Origin: Pseudanabaena sp. PCC 7367
Lineage (GTDB): Bacteria; Cyanobacteriota; Cyanobacteriia; Pseudanabaenales; Pseudanabaenaceae
Direction of reading: 5' to 3'
DNA: 64,000 nucleotides
Assembly (NCBI RefSeq): GCF_000317065.1
Contig: NC_019701.1
Span: forward strand, 1,674,001 to 1,738,000
A program made the translations under genes and the position numbers. The notes beneath the pieces are model-generated. The model saw only the letters and a program-made list of their open reading frames with translations, was not told where the DNA came from and did no database searches. Below, piece by piece: positions 14,923-31,974 of this stretch; the first letter of the stretch is position 1; the number at the start of each line of letters is the position of its first letter.

Positions 14923-15324
14923 CTATACAAGTAAGGATGAGTTGTAATGATGCACAAATAACCAGATAGCGCCAACATGGTTAGCTAACTTTTTCGAGAA
15001 AGAAAGAGATTTGCGAACCAGTCTTGAAGCTCTTTGCCTAAGAGTGCAATTAAATCGCTCAATTTTGTTTGTCAAGCCTGAACCTTTGTCCACTGGTTGA
15101 TGACGCATACTCGGAACTACCTGAGCATAGGCACGCCAGAAATCAGTGTAACAAACCGCACATTGTCGATAAACGGGTGGTAAAGACTGCCATAATCCTT
15201 GAGCACCAACCTCATCTCTAGACCCGATATGCACTCCTACGATCTCCTTAGTATTAACATCTATAGCTAACCAAACCCAAACCTTGACTCGTTTCTTGCC
15301 TACAAAAGACCACAGCTCATCCAT
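14923..15324 (-). CDS. insB: IS1-family transposase, InsB frame (DDE catalytic part)
   Basis: 133 residues. The DDE triad of IS1-family transposases is present: Asp in MDELWSFVGKK at the N-terminus, Asp in CYTDFWRAY and Glu in NKIERFNCTLRQR. The frame lies -1 relative to insA. A run of eight A on the coding strand (15343-15350) is the likely slippage site, producing the InsAB fusion, which is the active transposase. Compared with copy 2 it has Asn for Asp, His for Tyr and Lys for Arg at three positions. All catalytic residues are intact, so the element may still be active. Confidence 0.92.
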   Translation of the reverse strand: MDELWSFVGKKRVKVWVWLAIDVNTKEIVGVHIGSRDEVGAQGLWQSLPPVYRQCAVCYTDFWRAYAQVVPSMRHQPVDKGSGLTNKIERFNCTLRQRASRLVRKSLSFSKKLANHVGAIWLFVHHYNSSLLV

Positions 15325-15332
15325 TTGAATGG

Positions 15333-15644
15333 TTAAGTGCCCTTTTTTTTAGCCTGTACCTGCACTTGTTGGGGCACTTGAGCATATTTGTGATTAACAT
15401 ATTGCTGTAGCCATCTTGGTGATACACCTACAACTCTGGCAATACCTGCGAGTGAAACCCTCTCTAGCAGAAGTTTGTCGATTTGAGCTTTAGTCTCATT
15501 AGCGATATATTTCTTCTTAGAATTGGCTACAAATTGTCTATTGCATTGTTTACATTTGAAGTTTTGTTTACCGTTGTGAATTTTGCCATTTTTGACAATT
15601 TTGAGTGAATTGCATCTTGGACAAGTTAGCTTAGATGTATCCAT
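15333..15644 (-). CDS. insA: IS1-family InsA protein (zinc finger and helix-turn-helix)
   Basis: 103 residues with an N-terminal zinc ribbon (CPRCNS...CKQCNRQF) and a helix-turn-helix (LAGIARVVGVSPRWLQQYV). In IS1, InsA binds the terminal repeats and represses transposition, and it supplies the N-terminus of the frameshifted transposase. Its protein sequence is identical to that of copy 2. The ATG lies 54 bp inside the element's end. Confidence 0.92.
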   Translation of the reverse strand: MDTSKLTCPRCNSLKIVKNGKIHNGKQNFKCKQCNRQFVANSKKKYIANETKAQIDKLLLERVSLAGIARVVGVSPRWLQQYVNHKYAQVPQQVQVQAKKKGT

Positions 15645-21288: not shown

Positions 21289-22359
21289 CTAAAGAGAATT
21301 AAGGCAATCGCCCATTCGTTCAATTAAGCGTTGATTTTGCGATCGAGTGCCCACCGTGATCCGCAAACCACCGCCAGTCTGACGAATTAAAGTTCCTTTT
21401 TGTTTGAGCGCCTGGGCGATCGCTTTGTTATCCTGACCACGGGCATACAAGAAATTGCCAGCACTCGGCCACACCCTTAAACCCAAATTGCTTAATTCCC
21501 GATAGAGGCGATCGCGTTCCTGCCTGATTTCTGGCACTAGTTCCAGGAGTCGATCGCGGTTGTCCATAGCCAACTCTGCCGCAGTATGGGCAATTGTAGG
21601 CAGGTTATAGGGCAGGCGCACTTTTTCTAGGGCTTCAATCAACTCATTGGCCGCAAAGGCATAGCCCACCCGATAGGCCGCCAATCGAAACGCCTTGGAG
21701 AAGGTACGCATAATCAACCAGTTGGGATGCTGGTCTAGCTCGGCTGCCAGGGTGTGACTAGCAAATTCAAAGTAGGCTTCATCAATCACCACCAGGATGT
21801 TGCTGGGCAGCGATCGCACCCAATCTAGTTCCGCTGAGTTGAGAAGATTCCCCGTAGGAGAGTTAGGATGCACCAGGCCGATCGCGGCCACATGATGCTG
21901 TTCGATCGCAGCTTGGGCGGCGGCTAAGTCAATTTGGAAATTTTGGTCATGGCGTGGCACCTTCACCACTGGAATGCCAAGGCTGCGAGCTAAGATGTCG
22001 TACATCGAAAAGGTGGGCTCAGCTACCATGATGCTGCCGCGATGCAGACAGGCCACAACCAAGAGCGATCGAATAATTTCATCGGAGCCACAGCCGATCG
22101 AAATCTGGGACGACGTAATCCCATGCCCCACATAGTTAGCAATTAACTGTTTGAGGTGAGCATATTCGCCATCTGGATAGCGATTGGCTTTAATTTGATC
22201 ACTGGCGATCGTGCCGAGTTGGGACTTAAACCAATCCGGTAGATCGCTAGATACCTCATTAGCATCAATTTTATCAATCTCGGTGGCGGTAATATCAGCC
22301 AGGCTTTCAGCTTTGTAGGCAGAAAGGGTGGCGATGTCGGGGCGCACTAGTTGCTGCAT
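21289..22359 (-). CDS. hisC: Histidinol-phosphate aminotransferase
   Basis: HisC is a PLP enzyme that converts imidazole acetol phosphate plus glutamate to histidinol phosphate. Fold-type I motifs are in place in 356 residues: GCGSDEII at the cofactor cup, HPNSPTGN (Asn contacting PLP), DEAYFEF (Asp pairing with the pyridine nitrogen), the Schiff-base Lys in RTFSKAFRLAAYRVGY and the C-terminal Arg in GGLRITVGT. Closely related enzymes also act on aromatic amino acids. It stands alone; no other his gene is in the window. Confidence 0.92.
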   Translation of the reverse strand: MQQLVRPDIATLSAYKAESLADITATEIDKIDANEVSSDLPDWFKSQLGTIASDQIKANRYPDGEYAHLKQLIANYVGHGITSSQISIGCGSDEIIRSLLVVACLHRGSIMVAEPTFSMYDILARSLGIPVVKVPRHDQNFQIDLAAAQAAIEQHHVAAIGLVHPNSPTGNLLNSAELDWVRSLPSNILVVIDEAYFEFASHTLAAELDQHPNWLIMRTFSKAFRLAAYRVGYAFAANELIEALEKVRLPYNLPTIAHTAAELAMDNRDRLLELVPEIRQERDRLYRELSNLGLRVWPSAGNFLYARGQDNKAIAQALKQKGTLIRQTGGGLRITVGTRSQNQRLIERMGDCLNSL

Positions 22360-22650: not shown

Positions 22651-25600
22651 TTAAGCATATTCCCTTGCCACAAACTCAGGGAATACCAACGGCTCCGCCA
22701 GGGTTTGCTGCATATTCGAGACGATCGTTTGCAGGTAGCTATTCAGCAGTTGTAACTTTTGTAAATTGGGTTGATAGGTGCCATCGGTTTGGAACTCAAA
22801 TAGCTGTCCCGCAAATAGTTCTGGCGATAGGGTGGGGTCATTTAAGATTATTTCTTTCTCTGGTTCCTGCCAGGGGAACAAACCAGCCGGTAGCTCACCT
22901 TGCAGAATATTCATGATCCGATCGCGGCAAGCATTGGCATTCACGCCCCGCGCCTGGAGCTGTTGAATCAGGCGATTGTGGCTCACCGGATTACGCAAAT
23001 TAAGCTTGCAAATTTCCTGGAGCAAGAAGTAATCGGAATATTGTTGCCGGGAAATATCAATCAAATGGCGATAGAGCGGCACCAGCGACAAGCCAGCCGC
23101 GTTAGTATATTTAGCCAACCGCTCAACCTGGGCATTCGGCAGCTTTTGCACCAACCAGCGGTTTAAGGATGGTAACAGGGTGGTGTCACCCACCAGCCAG
23201 ACGGAACGAACCTCAGTGGCCGCGATTCCAGAGTTGCTGAGCAGGTTATTTAAGTGGCGATTGATTAATTGAATATAGGGGTGCAACACCTGATTTTCTA
23301 GCTCACGGCGTAACACGGTTAAGGGCAAGTCCTGGACTGTGGTGCTCCATTCTTCCAGATTCTTATCGATCGTGAAGGCCACCTTAAGCTTGGCTGCCGC
23401 TTGCAGAAATTCACGCCCTACCTTGCTGCTGAGTAAATATTGCTGCAAAATAGCCCGCTGTGATGGGGCAGGATCACCTGACTCCGGCAGCGCAAATTGG
23501 GTTAAATCAAATTCTGGCTGGTCAACGGCGGCGATCAATTGCCAGTGGGGGTAGAGTAAATGGGTGACAATATCTTGCTCTAGGGCATTGCCAGCATAAT
23601 CCAGGCCAATGTTCTTAATATAGCTGCGATGTACCTTGCCACCACTGGCTCTGACCAGGCATAAACTGGTGGCAGCCGCACCAGCATCGATCGCTAAGGT
23701 GGATGGAGCCAAATCAGCTTGGGTATGAATCCTGAGCAGCAAAGGCGCGATCGCCCGATCGACCACCATCACCTTCTCTGCCGCATCAACCAATCCCGCA
23801 CTTAAAACCGCCTCGCGCAGATTGAGCCCATAGGTATCTGGCCACCCGGTCGGATGCCCCAAAAGCACCCCATTTAGATGTTGGAGAATATCGCCCAGGT
23901 TTGGCAATAGGCTGTGAATTGCCTCAGCCCTCAGCTTGACCAGCAATTGTTTGAGCGTTCCTTGTACCCACCGCAGCGGTAGCGATTGTTGTTTGCTTTG
24001 TTGCACGATCGGTTGCCAAGCGCTAATACCTCGATAGGGCAGACCGAGCTTTAGTAACGACTTAAAGTGACTGATATGACTCTGGTTCAGGGTTGCTGCC
24101 GTGATGCCAACTGCAATATTAGCCTGGAGCGGGTCAGCATTCTCCTGCGCATCACTACTATGTATCCCCACCGTGGGAATAGTCGGCGTGGCATTACTAG
24201 GATCACCAAAGGAAAGGGGATAAATGCTGCCGCTATTGGCATTCACCAGCGTGGCGCTGAGATGATTGCTGCCAAAATCGATCCCCAAAAACCAGGTATC
24301 TGAAACATCGGTTGGGGTGGGGGTAGGGTTACCGATCGCTGGTAAGACTAAATCTAGCTGCGATCCGGTTAGCTCTGGTGGCTCTGGCTCAACTTCCACT
24401 GCCTCTACGTCAAGGAAATTAGCGGGGCGATCGAAGGTATTTGGATCAGCGTCTGGATCGGTGAATCTGAGATCAGTGGATGCGGAAGTTTGATCGGTTG
24501 CTGAATTAATTTGGAAGTCGGGCAAGTTATAAATAGCTTCATTCCAGGCTGGGTCTTGGCTCAGATCGGCCACATCCGCCTCAGTGGGGGAGAAACCCTG
24601 CCAGGTGTAGTCTTGGGCTTCTTGATCGGCTAGTTCGGTTAACTTCAGTTCTGCCTCACTCAAAACTGGTTCTGGCTCAGCTACATTTTGATCGCTTGAA
24701 GCAATGGGATCACTCAAATCAGTGCCAAAATCTTGATTGAGCCCGGTTTCTAATTCAGCCAAAGCATTTAGCTCTGCATCAAGGGCTAATGCCGGATCAG
24801 ATTCATCTGATTCATTAAACTGGTCAGATTCGCTAGATTCAACCGATTCATCCAATTCATGATTAATAAAACCATGATCGATCGTTTGACCATCTGCTTG
24901 GTTTGATTGATTTGCTAAATCATCGGCAAATTGATTTAATTGCTGATCTTGTTCATCTTCTAAGGATGCATAAAAGTCTTTCTCAGCATCAGGATCAGCA
25001 TTGTCTGAATCGGCTTCATCGAAACGATCGCCATTGTAGCTTTCAATTTCAGTTTCTTGGTCAGTGAGCAAATCCGCAGTTAAGGCACTGAGCATTTCTG
25101 CCGCATCTTCATTCTGCTCCACTTCTGGCAAGCCTTCTAGCACCGTATCCATGTCTGTATCCACATCAAGGCCGTCGATTCCCTGCAAAATGGTATCGAG
25201 TTCTTGATCGACATCAATATTGCGATCGAGTCCCTGGACTAACTCATCTAACTCTCGATTCAGATCTTGTACACCACCACTAGGCTCAGGAGTAGATGTC
25301 TGTGGCGCATTGGCATTAGTGAGCAGATCAAAACTATGATCCTGCTCTTGGGCTAATTGCTCTAGTTCAAATTTCAAATCTTGCTCTAGCCTTGATTCCA
25401 GGTCCGGCAAGTCCGGTAATAGGGGCTCGGTATTGGACTCTAGATTCTCTAAATTAAGATCGCTATCGTTGCTGTAATCACTATTAAATGTTGGCAGTGG
25501 GATCTCGGCATCTAGATCTACGTCAGCCAAGCCCAGTAAATCATCGATCGTGCGATCGGTTATTGCCTCAGCATCATTGAAACTATCAAAACCACTAGAG

Positions 25601-28600
25601 CTTGTTTCTGAATTAAATAACTGATCAGGAAAGGTATTTAAGTTAGCATCTTCCAGCAGATCCGACTCGGAACCAGGGCGATCGGCCTCAGCACTATTAG
25701 CTTTAGTGCCAAACAAAGCCGCCGAGTCATCTACGATCTGGGGGATCTCCGCCGATTGATCTGAGCCTTCTCTGCTATCTAGATTGTCTAGATTGTCTAG
25801 ATTGTCTAGATTGTCTAAGCCAAGATCTAAACCGAGGTCATCTAGTTCATCTAGTTCACTGCGATCGCTTGCTTGGTCTGGCTGCTGGTCGGCTTGATCC
25901 CGGTCAAATAAAACTGCCGCATCATCAATGATCGCCGGAATTTGCGCGAACAGATCGCTGTCTTCGTTGTCACTATCTATCCCAGTACGCTTAAGGCTTT
26001 CATCACTATCCTTAGCCACAAACTCAGTGCCAGCAAATAAATCCTGTGAGTTATCCGTTGTCTCAGCTACATTTTGCTCAGGTTCGTTGCTCTGAGCGAT
26101 CGATTCAGCTTGTTCATCTGCACCACTATCGAATGGGGTATTACGAACCGCCAGATCCAGATTCGCCGCTACGATCGGGTTTACGCCAGTGCCAATATCC
26201 AGGCTTTCCAAGTCTTGATCCAGTTCTGCTAGCAGGATTTCATCTTCAGTCAGGCTCACTGACCGTTGCTCCTCTGTCTCTTCTGGCAGCAGAATTAATG
26301 ATTCATCTAACTTCTCTGCATCATCTTCTGCCTCTAGGTAGGCAATCTGGGCATTATCTGCCTCCGACTCCAATGTTTCCACTGCCTCTACTAGGATCAC
26401 ATCTGGCGCATCTGGCTCCAGGCGATCGCTATCGTCCTCACTGGTTAGCCAGGACATAAAATCTGGATCGGGGGTAGGTGCAGCACTAGAGCGATCGATT
26501 GGTTGATCGCTGCGATTCTCTTGGCTAATTTGCTCTGGCTGAGAACCACTAATGCCAAACTTGTCACCAAAATCTTTACTAAAGCTATCTTCCGAACCAG
26601 TTGCCACATCGCCGACAGACTGTTCTGATTGATCTGGTTGATCCCGCTGCTCTAGCCAGGCTAGCAAATCTGGATCTTCATCGAGCAAGTCTGTATTGCT
26701 AGCACTCAAGCCCGATTGCAAATTCAAATTATCCCGATCGCTTAGAGCGCTGGGAGCATCTAGATCGCCTAGCTCACTTAGATCACCTAGCTCAGGAACA
26801 TTAGTTTGCAAATTTTCTACTTCAGATGCCGACAATTTATCGGCGCTGCTTTCTAACCAGGACATCAAATCATCTGATCCAGCAGGGGATTCAACCGCTT
26901 GGCTCACATCGCTGGCGATCGACTCATTAGGATCTGGCTCCGTAAACGCTGCAATCTGAGTATCTGCATCAGGGTCAAAATCCTGGGCATTGATTTGACT
27001 AGCTAGAATTTGAGGCTCGGCAATTTCGGTATCAATATCATCATCTATATTTGTAGCTATATTCGTATCTGTGCCTGTGGTTAGGCCGCTGCCTGAGTAA
27101 CTATCCTCTGCGTTTACCTGCTCAGATAGCTGATTAGCAAAATCATCAAGCTCAACCTCAATTGAACCGCTTTGCAAGTCCTCGATGAAATCGCCAAAAC
27201 TATCATCTTGAGACCGTTGATCTTGAACACCAGTAATGTTGATGTCATCTGTGGCTGCCCCCTGATCGAGGTCTAAATCAGAGCTACTATCGATCGCTGC
27301 ATCATTACCCTCTGGTTGGTGCGATTGCAGGGAACGGTTATAAAAATTATCGATTAGACTATCAAGATTTTCCTGGCTTAGATCGGCACTAAATTTAGAC
27401 TCACTGGTTGCACTTTCAGTTAGCTCGATCGCCTTGTTTACATCAGCTTGAACCGAGGCGGAATCAAGATCTGGTTCATTAATATCCCCATTAATATCAT
27501 TGATATCGCTAACGGGCTCGGCATAGTCTGGCTCGAAACCTGCCAGGGGTTCTAGCTGATCCTGATCCGACGTAGCAATATTATCAACTTGGTCGTTAAG
27601 TTGGGCATTTAGCTCTAGACCAGATTGATTGACATTGTTGAGCCCAATCAGGTTGCTAAGATCATCTAGGCCATCCAAATCAGTCGAATCATCTAGATCA
27701 CCAGGTAGGTCAGTATCGGCTAGATTTACATCTGGATTGGCGCTGGAGGCAGGCAAATCTAAGCCAATATTAAGCTCTGCCAGGGTGCTACCAATATCAT
27801 TGCCAAATGCGGTACTAGTCTCAAATTCGATCGTTTGCTCAGCTTGTTCAGTTTGTTCAAACTGCTCCGCCGAGTCAGATGACACAGCAGGATCAGCAAT
27901 ATCAGCACCAAGACCAAGGTTGGCACTGCGATTTAGGGGGAAATTAACCAGATTGGATTCGATCGCTGCATCTGGATCGCTATCATTACTGAGCAGACTA
28001 TCGATTGTTACTTGGTCAAACTCAGGATCATCTAAATTTAGATCAATATCAATATCTTCATCTATATCTGTATCTGTGGTGCTTGTTTGGGCATCGGTTG
28101 TGGTGTAATTATCCTGATCATTACCCTGACTGGAAGCCTGATTTGAGTCTTGATTACTTGCCGACCCAGAGCGCGATTGAGGTGGCATATTTTGGACTTC
28201 GTTACCCATCCGATCGACCAGGGCTTGTAATAACATTTCGCCGCGCTGTTCTGCCTCCTGCATCTGATCGAGTTGCTCTTGCAAAGAACTACGATAGCCC
28301 TGAATATTATTTTCCAAGGACTTGAGGGTGGCATGGAACATTGCGTCCAGATTCAGCAAGAACTGATCCGATCGTTGCTTTACTTCCTCCACCATGGCCT
28401 CTTGATTAGGCCGCTGATTGGGTAGCTCCACCAGATCAGGCGTTGTGGCAGGCTCTGGCTGAATATTCTGGATCGCCTGACTTACTTCATTGGTAATCTG
28501 GGACAGCAGTTGCTGATTAGAGGTTTGAATATAGCTAACAAACTCCTGCTCTTGCTGTTTGTGGCGATCGAGCAGTTGATCAAGTTGCGATTGATATTTG

Positions 28601-29286
28601 TTTTCTAGTTTGGCAATTTCTTCATAGAGCAATTGCTGCTGTTGCTGCTCGACCTCAAAGGGGGAAACATCGGGCGAGTCGGGTTGATTGGTCTCCACAA
28701 TGCCGCGTAAATTGGCCGTCACTTCGGCGATCATCAACGCCCGCTCCACTGGCAGGGTTCGCTCCAGTACCTGCTGAACCGTTTGTTGGACTGCCTGTTC
28801 GACCACGGGGGCAAGCTGTTCTTTGAGCTGAGCCAGATCCGCGGGCGGGGTTGCTGCGTTTTTCTGCGCCATGTTGGGTGTTTCCTTGATCCAGTTCGAT
28901 TCCGCCGCCGACAGAATTGACTGATATTTGCTGAGATCTTGTTTGGCGGTGGGGCGATCGCCAAGCGCATTTTTAGCAGCCGATTTAGGAGCTTGAAAAG
29001 ACTTAGAAGCGGGGGCTTGGGTTGAACTAGATGAACTTGACTCAGTCAGGGAAAATTTGGTGGAGCCTGGATTTTGCATCTGCGCGATTAATTGATTGCA
29101 ATCTTGCTCGATCGCCTGGATATCATCGGTATCTTGCAAATTGGCCAACCGCGATCGCAACTGTTTGAGCTGCTCCCGTTGTTGGATTTCTTCCTGGGGG
29201 AAACCCCTGGCCGCCGAACCCAATGGCCTGGCCAGCAAATGATTAATCTGCTGTACTAGTTGATCGCGGATCTGGCTGTTCGACAT
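22651..29286 (-). CDS. Giant acidic protein with C-terminal Hsp70/actin-like ATPase domain
   Basis: 2211 residues in one frame. Residues 1-70 are a charged helical region. Residues about 150-400 are Gln/Glu-rich coiled coil (EEIAKLENKYQSQLDQLLDR and similar). From about 405 to 1650 the sequence is low-complexity, dominated by Asp, Ser, Glu, Leu and Asn, and probably disordered. It contains recurring short motifs such as MSWL/LAWL (three times) and I-DDxAxLF (twice), and a run of LDN repeats near residue 1160. From about 1663 to the end a domain resembles the Hsp70/actin ATPase fold, with GIDFGSNHLSATL (phosphate 1), LAIDAGAAATSLCLV (phosphate 2) and VWLVGDTTLLPSL (adenosine). Function is unknown; scaffold or chaperone-like roles are guesses. 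It has no signal peptide. Confidence 0.8.
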   Translation of the reverse strand: MSNSQIRDQLVQQINHLLARPLGSAARGFPQEEIQQREQLKQLRSRLANLQDTDDIQAIEQDCNQLIAQMQNPGSTKFSLTESSSSSSTQAPASKSFQAPKSAAKNALGDRPTAKQDLSKYQSILSAAESNWIKETPNMAQKNAATPPADLAQLKEQLAPVVEQAVQQTVQQVLERTLPVERALMIAEVTANLRGIVETNQPDSPDVSPFEVEQQQQQLLYEEIAKLENKYQSQLDQLLDRHKQQEQEFVSYIQTSNQQLLSQITNEVSQAIQNIQPEPATTPDLVELPNQRPNQEAMVEEVKQRSDQFLLNLDAMFHATLKSLENNIQGYRSSLQEQLDQMQEAEQRGEMLLQALVDRMGNEVQNMPPQSRSGSASNQDSNQASSQGNDQDNYTTTDAQTSTTDTDIDEDIDIDLNLDDPEFDQVTIDSLLSNDSDPDAAIESNLVNFPLNRSANLGLGADIADPAVSSDSAEQFEQTEQAEQTIEFETSTAFGNDIGSTLAELNIGLDLPASSANPDVNLADTDLPGDLDDSTDLDGLDDLSNLIGLNNVNQSGLELNAQLNDQVDNIATSDQDQLEPLAGFEPDYAEPVSDINDINGDINEPDLDSASVQADVNKAIELTESATSESKFSADLSQENLDSLIDNFYNRSLQSHQPEGNDAAIDSSSDLDLDQGAATDDINITGVQDQRSQDDSFGDFIEDLQSGSIEVELDDFANQLSEQVNAEDSYSGSGLTTGTDTNIATNIDDDIDTEIAEPQILASQINAQDFDPDADTQIAAFTEPDPNESIASDVSQAVESPAGSDDLMSWLESSADKLSASEVENLQTNVPELGDLSELGDLDAPSALSDRDNLNLQSGLSASNTDLLDEDPDLLAWLEQRDQPDQSEQSVGDVATGSEDSFSKDFGDKFGISGSQPEQISQENRSDQPIDRSSAAPTPDPDFMSWLTSEDDSDRLEPDAPDVILVEAVETLESEADNAQIAYLEAEDDAEKLDESLILLPEETEEQRSVSLTEDEILLAELDQDLESLDIGTGVNPIVAANLDLAVRNTPFDSGADEQAESIAQSNEPEQNVAETTDNSQDLFAGTEFVAKDSDESLKRTGIDSDNEDSDLFAQIPAIIDDAAVLFDRDQADQQPDQASDRSELDELDDLGLDLGLDNLDNLDNLDNLDSREGSDQSAEIPQIVDDSAALFGTKANSAEADRPGSESDLLEDANLNTFPDQLFNSETSSSGFDSFNDAEAITDRTIDDLLGLADVDLDAEIPLPTFNSDYSNDSDLNLENLESNTEPLLPDLPDLESRLEQDLKFELEQLAQEQDHSFDLLTNANAPQTSTPEPSGGVQDLNRELDELVQGLDRNIDVDQELDTILQGIDGLDVDTDMDTVLEGLPEVEQNEDAAEMLSALTADLLTDQETEIESYNGDRFDEADSDNADPDAEKDFYASLEDEQDQQLNQFADDLANQSNQADGQTIDHGFINHELDESVESSESDQFNESDESDPALALDAELNALAELETGLNQDFGTDLSDPIASSDQNVAEPEPVLSEAELKLTELADQEAQDYTWQGFSPTEADVADLSQDPAWNEAIYNLPDFQINSATDQTSASTDLRFTDPDADPNTFDRPANFLDVEAVEVEPEPPELTGSQLDLVLPAIGNPTPTPTDVSDTWFLGIDFGSNHLSATLVNANSGSIYPLSFGDPSNATPTIPTVGIHSSDAQENADPLQANIAVGITAATLNQSHISHFKSLLKLGLPYRGISAWQPIVQQSKQQSLPLRWVQGTLKQLLVKLRAEAIHSLLPNLGDILQHLNGVLLGHPTGWPDTYGLNLREAVLSAGLVDAAEKVMVVDRAIAPLLLRIHTQADLAPSTLAIDAGAAATSLCLVRASGGKVHRSYIKNIGLDYAGNALEQDIVTHLLYPHWQLIAAVDQPEFDLTQFALPESGDPAPSQRAILQQYLLSSKVGREFLQAAAKLKVAFTIDKNLEEWSTTVQDLPLTVLRRELENQVLHPYIQLINRHLNNLLSNSGIAATEVRSVWLVGDTTLLPSLNRWLVQKLPNAQVERLAKYTNAAGLSLVPLYRHLIDISRQQYSDYFLLQEICKLNLRNPVSHNRLIQQLQARGVNANACRDRIMNILQGELPAGLFPWQEPEKEIILNDPTLSPELFAGQLFEFQTDGTYQPNLQKLQLLNSYLQTIVSNMQQTLAEPLVFPEFVAREYA

Positions 29287-29428
29287 GATGCCCCCTGAAT
29301 ATAGATCGGCTCAACAGAAATAAACTAGTCCCTCGGTGAAAAGTTATAGTCTTATTTTTGTCAATAGACAATATGTTTGCTATGATTTGCGCTATTTTGA
29401 GGCAAACATTTGTATTAGGTGTGAGAGC

Positions 29429-29788
29429 ATGAGATTTAAAACCCCAACTCGTTGGATAAGCTATATAGCATCTTTGGCATTATTGGCAACTGCTTTTCCA
29501 GCAGCGGCGGAGCGCAAAGAGGTTGACTTGCGCCTGCCCACCAGGAATGGCGAAGATTATACAGTTTTGGTTAGACGTGCTGAAACCCTGGCCAGAACAG
29601 CAGCTCAGAGCATGTTCGATCGTGAAATTCTCGTCTCGGATGTTTCTATTAAGATAACAGCAGAAGATCAAGCGCAGGCAGCTTTGGTGTTGCAGATGAA
29701 TGTGACCCGATCGGACTGGTATAGCCGTCCTGATCCACGCATCTGGTCCACTTACTTTCCGGTCGCCCAAGATCTGCTACAGCTCTAG
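29429..29788 (+). CDS. Small exported protein of unknown function
   Basis: The 119-residue product begins with a signal peptide (MRFKTPTRWISYIASLAL...PAAA, cleavage near residue 27). About 90 mature residues follow with alternating polar and hydrophobic positions (LVSDVSIKITAE, AALVLQMNVTRSDW), suggesting a beta-rich fold. I chose the ATG at 29429 because it starts the signal peptide; a GTG at 29336 would place 31 unlikely residues ahead of it. It diverges from the giant acidic protein, 142 bp apart. I do not recognise the family. Confidence 0.7.
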   Translation: MRFKTPTRWISYIASLALLATAFPAAAERKEVDLRLPTRNGEDYTVLVRRAETLARTAAQSMFDREILVSDVSIKITAEDQAQAALVLQMNVTRSDWYSRPDPRIWSTYFPVAQDLLQL

Positions 29789-31252: not shown

Positions 31253-31564
31253 ATGGATACATCTAAGCTAACTTGTCCAAGATGCAATTCACTCAAAATT
31301 GTCAAAAATGGCAAAATTCACAACGGTAAACAAAACTTCAAATGTAAACAATGCAATAGACAATTTGTAGCCAATTCTAAGAAGAAATATATCGCTAATG
31401 AGACTAAAGCTCAAATCGACAAACTTCTGCTAGAGAGGGTTTCACTCGCAGGTATTGCCAGAGTTGTAGGTGTATCACCAAGATGGCTACAGCAATATGT
31501 TAATCACAAATATGCTCAAGTGCCCCAACAAGTGCAGGTACAGGCTAAAAAAAAGGGCACTTAA
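31253..31564 (+). CDS. insA: IS1-family InsA protein
   Basis: 103 residues, identical in protein sequence to the InsA of copy 1. It has the N-terminal zinc ribbon with two CxxC pairs and the helix-turn-helix. The frame ends just after a run of eight A followed by GGG (31547-31557). This is the probable site for -1 frameshifting into insB: slippage there would give a continuous reading through KKKGHLTIQMDELW. Confidence 0.92.
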   Translation: MDTSKLTCPRCNSLKIVKNGKIHNGKQNFKCKQCNRQFVANSKKKYIANETKAQIDKLLLERVSLAGIARVVGVSPRWLQQYVNHKYAQVPQQVQVQAKKKGT

Positions 31565-31572
31565 CCATTCAA

Positions 31573-31974
31573 ATGGATGAGCTGTGGTCTTTTGTAGGCA
31601 AGAAACGAGTCAAGGTTTGGGTTTGGTTAGCTATAGATGTTGATACTAAGGAGATCGTAGGAGTGTATATCGGTTCTAGAGATGAGGTTGGTGCTCAAGG
31701 ATTATGGCAGTCTTTACCACCCGTTTATCGACAATGTGCTGTTTGTTACACTGATTTCTGGCGTGCCTATGCTCAGGTAGTTCCGAGTATGCGTCATCAA
31801 CCAGTGGACAAAGGTTCAGGCTTGACTAATAGAATTGAGCGATTTAATTGCACTCTTAGGCAAAGAGCTTCAAGACTGGTTCGCAAATCTCTTTCTTTCT
31901 CGAAAAAGTTAGCTAACCATGTTGGCGCTATCTGGTTATTTGTGCATCATTACAACTCATCCTTACTTGTATAG
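31573..31974 (+). CDS. insB: IS1-family transposase, InsB frame
   Basis: 133 residues with the complete DDE set (MDELW, CYTDFW, NRIERFN). The own ATG lacks a strong ribosome binding site, consistent with expression through frameshifting from insA. It ends 7 bp inside the right end of the element. Three residues differ from copy 1. Confidence 0.92.
   Translation: MDELWSFVGKKRVKVWVWLAIDVDTKEIVGVYIGSRDEVGAQGLWQSLPPVYRQCAVCYTDFWRAYAQVVPSMRHQPVDKGSGLTNRIERFNCTLRQRASRLVRKSLSFSKKLANHVGAIWLFVHHYNSSLLV

Follow-up and report, generated by a model that had tools for sequence, protein, structure and literature searches.

Within the window, by which we mean the whole 64,000-nucleotide stretch of Pseudanabaena sp. 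PCC 7367 DNA analyzed here, a single minus-strand gene encodes a protein of 2,211 amino acids (Table 1). Its ATG follows a GGGGG stretch at a distance of about 5 bases, and with 19% Asp plus Glu, against a median of 11%, the product is the most acidic among the 37 long frames of the window. The anatomy of the protein in three parts, a helical N-terminal region, an acidic linker and an ATPase-type domain, is near certain. An initial sequence-only reading had described a long coiled coil, an Asp/Ser-rich stretch and a C-terminal ATPase joined in one protein without a signal peptide, and the parts do sit where it placed them; inspection by eye revealed no evident signal peptide or transmembrane stretch. 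A low-complexity linker could conceal a frame error in a single genome; however, many independently assembled genomes have this architecture in an open frame. Because the C-terminal domain, the N-terminal region and the make-up of the linker are conserved together, we regard the frame as real and not a product of chance. The existence of conserved fused relatives, along with the presence of the C-terminal domain in 50 of 58 related genomes, rules out that the long frame arose by chance or through a fusion made in annotation, to which we attach a negligible probability. The gene lies in a stretch bounded by two near-identical two-frame transposase gene pairs that point in opposite directions.

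Table 1. Features of the gene for the 2,211-residue protein and its surroundings (coordinates are those of the window)
Feature	Residues	Coordinates	Strand	Basis or remarks
Whole gene	1-2211	22651..29286	minus	ATG start; stop codon at 22651-22653; homologues exist
N-terminal helical region	1-385	28132..29286	minus	single-sequence phmmer and HMM matches in fused and split relatives; AF2
Acidic, K/R-poor linker, presumed disordered	386-1655	24322..28131	minus	composition
DNFYNRSL	646-653	27328..27351	minus	possible equivalent of D-x-[FL]-Y-x-S-L-F-G, by position and likeness only
Conserved linker segment containing DESLILLP	~988-1052	26131..26325	minus	BLAST against Pseudanabaena relatives
Hsp70-type nucleotide-binding fold	1664-2068	23083..24297	minus	AF2, Foldseek, VIA-align 2, profile matches to DnaK chains
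Phosphate-1-like LGIDFGSN	1667-1674	24265..24288	minus	Asp1670 invariant (67/67)
Phosphate-2-like IDAGAAATS	1866-1874	23665..23691	minus	Asp1867 in 23/67 relatives (Asn 21, Ser 21)
Adenosine-motif-like LVGDTTLLP	2031-2039	23170..23196	minus	Gly2033 invariant
Conserved C-terminal extension	2069-2211	22654..23082	minus	QQYSDYFLL, RGVN..ACRDRI, EPLVFP
Aminotransferase (neighbor)		21289-22359	minus	
Short uncharacterized protein (neighbor)		29336-29788	plus	hydrophobic N-terminus
Transposase gene pair		14923-15644	minus	two frames
Transposase gene pair		31253-31974	plus	two frames

Comparison of the predicted structure with known ones settles the fold of the C-terminal domain as the Hsp70-type nucleotide-binding fold. 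An AlphaFold2 (AF2) model of residues 1664 to 2211, based on an alignment of 67 relatives, reached a pLDDT of 91.6 and a pTM of 0.91, and when it was compared with the PDB by Foldseek, the best 50 matches were all of Hsp70 type, with DnaK at the top (E = 3.2e-14). VIA-align 2 superposed the model on DnaK with a Z score of 24.9 (3.9 Å rmsd over 368 residues), and the nucleotide-binding domain of Hsp110 and MreB gave Z scores of 23.3 and 21.3, respectively. At the sequence level, the kinship is faint for the single protein, for which Pfam HSP70 scored 15.5 bits, under the gathering score of 20.6, and a search of the PDB gave a weak Hsp70 match (E = 0.14). A profile of 25 relatives matched DnaK chains in the PDB with an E value of 3.6e-7, followed by PilM (2.7e-4) and MreB (2.8e-4), and weak Pfam matches among 25 family members were to HSP70 in 19 and to PilM_2 in 16 (best PilM_2 E value, 3e-4). 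Alignment with one cyanobacterial DnaK by hhalign (E = 1.3e-4; probability, 54%) brought the EPTAA, phosphate-2, EAAEKAK and GGST regions into register. A relation to the Hsp70/actin fold had been named beforehand as the test of the sequence-only reading, and it is upheld by DnaK being the top match both by profile and by structure. The reading was also right that the arrangement is far from that of canonical DnaK: the domain is C-terminal, and beyond the fold the AF2 model contains helices and one short strand pair but no β-sandwich, so that a substrate-binding domain is absent from it and is replaced by about 140 conserved extra residues. Pfam and NCBIfam hold no curated model for the family, all matches being below threshold, and identity with a known curated family was therefore rejected. 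We would class the family with the Hsp70/actin-type ATPases, as a variant of them, and not as a DnaK. The genome of Pseudanabaena sp. PCC 7367 itself carries three canonical DnaK genes and further divergent Hsp70-like frames of 539 to 581 amino acids (C2:4141206-4141877, C2:782235-783116 and C2:2922912-2923697). In two metagenome bins (L092 and L099), the ATPase is spread over more than one reading frame, and these copies are either broken or faultily assembled.

The motifs expected around a nucleotide can be located in the domain in differing states of conservation (Table 1). In addition to the invariant positions, the candidate Lys1742, assigned from sequence position alone, is retained in 63 of the 67 relatives, and at the Glu position of EPTAA, 55 have Glu and 9 have Asp (64/67). 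Since the phosphate-2 Asp is missing in about two thirds of the relatives, the domain may bind nucleotide without hydrolyzing it.

The N-terminal region is less well defined. Its AF2 model (residues 1 to 385) is weak, with a pLDDT of 69 and a pTM of 0.37, and places helices at residues 150 to 200, 209 to 275 and 293 to 366. Two blocks, the first comprising residues ~1 to 71, are conserved across fused and split relatives. No PDB fold matched the model at an E value of 0.001 or better, which is uninformative given the pTM, and with a model of this quality, oligomerization through the N-terminus is a guess. A J-domain at this end of the protein was rejected, as inspection of the N-terminal alignment revealed no HPD signature.

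The linker, to which the proposed ~1,200 disordered Asp/Ser-rich residues correspond, is 1,270 residues long, its disorder being judged from composition. It has a net charge of -295, with 26% Asp plus Glu and only 2.7% Lys plus Arg, and its main constituents are Asp (16%), Leu (11%), Ser (10%) and Glu (10%). In relatives, the linkers range from 205 to 1,699 residues, and the acidic, K/R-poor make-up is kept while the sequence turns over. Two short motifs nevertheless stand far above shuffled sequence, namely, a Y.SLFG-type motif, with the family form D-x-[FL]-Y-x-S-L-F-G, among 22 relatives listed, and YI.A.P.E.LL, among 20 listed. The conserved linker segment of the window protein shares ~50% identity over 65 amino acids with Pseudanabaena relatives (BLAST E value, ~1e-9) and is related to the YI.A.P.E.LL segment of other relatives, although it fell below threshold in a profile of the latter region. 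Another motif suggested by the window protein, DD[SA].A.LF, had no match in the set of relatives and was dropped. The conserved linker motifs lend indirect support to the earlier proposal that the acidic region may recruit partners; the same proposal had raised, as an alternative, that the region might form a condensate.

In many relatives, the ATPase has a gene of its own, directly preceded on that strand by a gene for the helical N-terminus and the acidic linker. Of 112 loci scored by script, several of which come from the same species so that the counts are not independent, 58 were fused (N-terminal region detected), 7 were fused but truncated at a contig end, 28 were split, and in 19 a partner was undetected. 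When these 19 were viewed by eye, 4 proved to be split pairs and about 8 lay near contig ends; in most of the remainder, a long acidic stretch precedes the ATPase, and the N-terminal region was not matched. Among 67 ATPase domains arranged on a tree, there are 7 switches between the fused and the split label, of which well-supported branches force at least 6; misassembly may account for some of the splits in metagenome bins. A frame split in related genomes had been expected to refute the sequence-only reading. The frame is indeed split in many of them, yet as adjacent same-strand genes that repeatedly fuse and separate, and this strengthens the idea of a single unit. That the halves have joined and parted so often argues strongly, on evolutionary grounds, for their acting together, and from these genomic patterns, the scaffold half and the ATPase half look like one functional unit. 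A KKK-type tail ends 11 of 22 split partners, though the linker otherwise contains little lysine; partners carrying it include L031, L033, L095, L097, L103, L109, L113, L118, L132 and L136. Among the fused proteins, 4 of 55 retain a KKK-type stretch before the ATPase, within ~60 residues of it in 3 of the 4, and this stretch may be a trace of fusion.

Outside Pseudanabaena, the recurrent neighbors of the gene or gene pair encode a Crp-like regulator (32 loci), a DUF2232 protein (26 loci) and a CobT-like protein (22 loci). The Crp-like regulator gene lies divergently beside the gene or pair in many families (L118, L124, L148, L169, L173 and others), and its recurrence hints at shared regulation. 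The neighbors in the window differ, being an aminotransferase and a short uncharacterized protein (Table 1). The gene for the latter is divergent from that of the 2,211-residue protein, and proteins of about its length adjoin the family gene in ~20 loci, mostly of Pseudanabaena. No PilN-type or other pilus or division partner gene was recognized in the neighborhood of the family gene. A defense system was considered and discarded, as PADLOC gave no match.

The sequence-only reading had treated the protein as a one-protein oddity. This part did not hold, for what emerges is a widespread family of N-terminal, linker and ATPase modules, and the proposed check for the protein in other cyanobacteria came out positive. 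Among 290 Cyanobacteriia genomes, 213 matched at 1e-8, of which 53 were set aside as probable ordinary DnaK on their E range alone (~1e-8 to 1e-15), leaving ~160. In a sample of the phylum, all 37 matches fell inside this same class, and in a scan of named genomes, the 80 loci listed were all cyanobacterial. Outside the Pseudanabaenaceae, the window's own taxonomic family, 122 genomes had both the protein family and HetR, which marks filamentous cyanobacteria, 6 had the protein family only, 26 had HetR only and 104 had neither, in a comparison that ignores relatedness and genome size; larger genomes may hold both. HetR is absent from the Pseudanabaenaceae, which we take to be Pseudanabaena-like and filamentous. 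The hetR gene was found in all 12 filamentous strains examined in previous work, as well as in two unicellular ones (PMC3141437). As its distribution follows HetR, the family may belong to the filamentous-growth genes of cyanobacteria, a set about which little is known.

The mechanism that we favor, tentatively and with the anatomy left untouched, is that the two modules form an acidic hub, oligomeric and carrying short binding motifs, whose gate is a tethered switch of the Hsp70 type. The helical N-terminus would form oligomers, and the acidic linker would recruit partners by displaying short hydrophobic-acidic motifs. The tethered Hsp70-derived domain would bind ATP and change shape with the nucleotide, hydrolysis probably being slow or variable, and the assembly of the hub or the binding of partners would thereby become nucleotide dependent. 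From the distribution, the likely setting would be a process of filamentous life, be it at cell poles or septa, in motility or in morphogenesis. The broader claim, that this is a filamentous-cyanobacterial module in which an Hsp70-derived ATPase without a substrate-binding domain switches an acidic oligomeric scaffold and which is needed for a filamentous-growth trait, is doubtful at present.

Several other explanations must be weighed against the gated hub. The Hsp70-type fold and sequence signature, together with two genes that adjoin or are fused, would also suit a dedicated chaperone pair, in which a specialized chaperone or co-chaperone, the Hsp70-like domain, has the acidic coiled-coil protein as its client, its holdase or its substitute for a J-protein. 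We consider this rather unlikely, given that the model is devoid of a substrate-binding domain, that the N-terminal alignment does not display the HPD signature and that the genome already has its canonical DnaK genes. Alternatively, the domain could be an assembly ATPase of the PilM/FtsA/MreB type that polymerizes or docks on a machine in the membrane (type IV pilus, divisome or elongasome), for which the acidic protein would be the adaptor. The PilM_2 matches, the place of MreB in the structural list and the distribution along the filamentous marker all speak for it, and on the MreB score, the modeled domain may behave in a cytoskeletal rather than an Hsp70-like manner. However, Hsp70 chains come first by both sequence and structure, and the recurrent neighbors are the Crp-like, DUF2232 and CobT-like proteins, with no pilus partner recognized alongside, which makes this reading an unlikely one. 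Least probable of these is a pseudo-ATPase, in which the fold survives for structural or binding purposes and ATP is not used as a switch. That 42 of the 67 relatives have Asn or Ser in place of the phosphate-2 Asp would be in line with it, but the phosphate-1 Asp never varies and the lysine and the EPTAA Glu hardly do, which would be unexpected were the nucleotide irrelevant.

Full-text literature searches for atypical or actin-like Hsp70 proteins in filamentous cyanobacteria brought up no description of the family; two filament-specific gene lists include many hypothetical proteins (PMC2821919, PMC3141437), which are unmapped with respect to it. What is new here is that the ATPase and scaffold halves occur as neighboring genes in many relatives and interchange with the fused form. 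With Hsp70/DnaK and its divergent kin Hsp110 and Ssz1, the family shares the nucleotide-binding fold and the order of motifs; it differs from Hsp70/DnaK in the C-terminal position of the domain, which has no substrate-binding domain and an extra conserved C-terminal region, in the attached or adjacent acidic scaffold and in the variable phosphate-2 Asp. A cyanobacterial DnaK (Hsp70) system, DnaK1/DnaJ3 of Nostoc punctiforme, has been connected with motility and type IV pili; DnaK1 is treated there as a DnaK chaperone that has its own cognate DnaJ, and as conserved also in unicellular Synechocystis (PMC9239167). The family described here is separate from this system and divergent, the two being set apart by description and not by sequence. 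PilM, FtsA and MreB have the same superfamily fold and give weak profile matches, but they rank below Hsp70 in sequence searches, and their partner genes are unrecognized in the neighborhood. PopZ, HubP and FimV are acidic bacterial hub proteins that combine an oligomerizing helical part with a D/E-rich disordered region recruiting partners. Their resemblance to the family is proposed purely as an analogy in the way of working, and we know of no hub of this type with an Hsp70-type domain. To these systems, the family adds a divergent Hsp70-type domain that has, instead of a substrate-binding domain, an acidic scaffold in the same chain or encoded by the neighboring gene.
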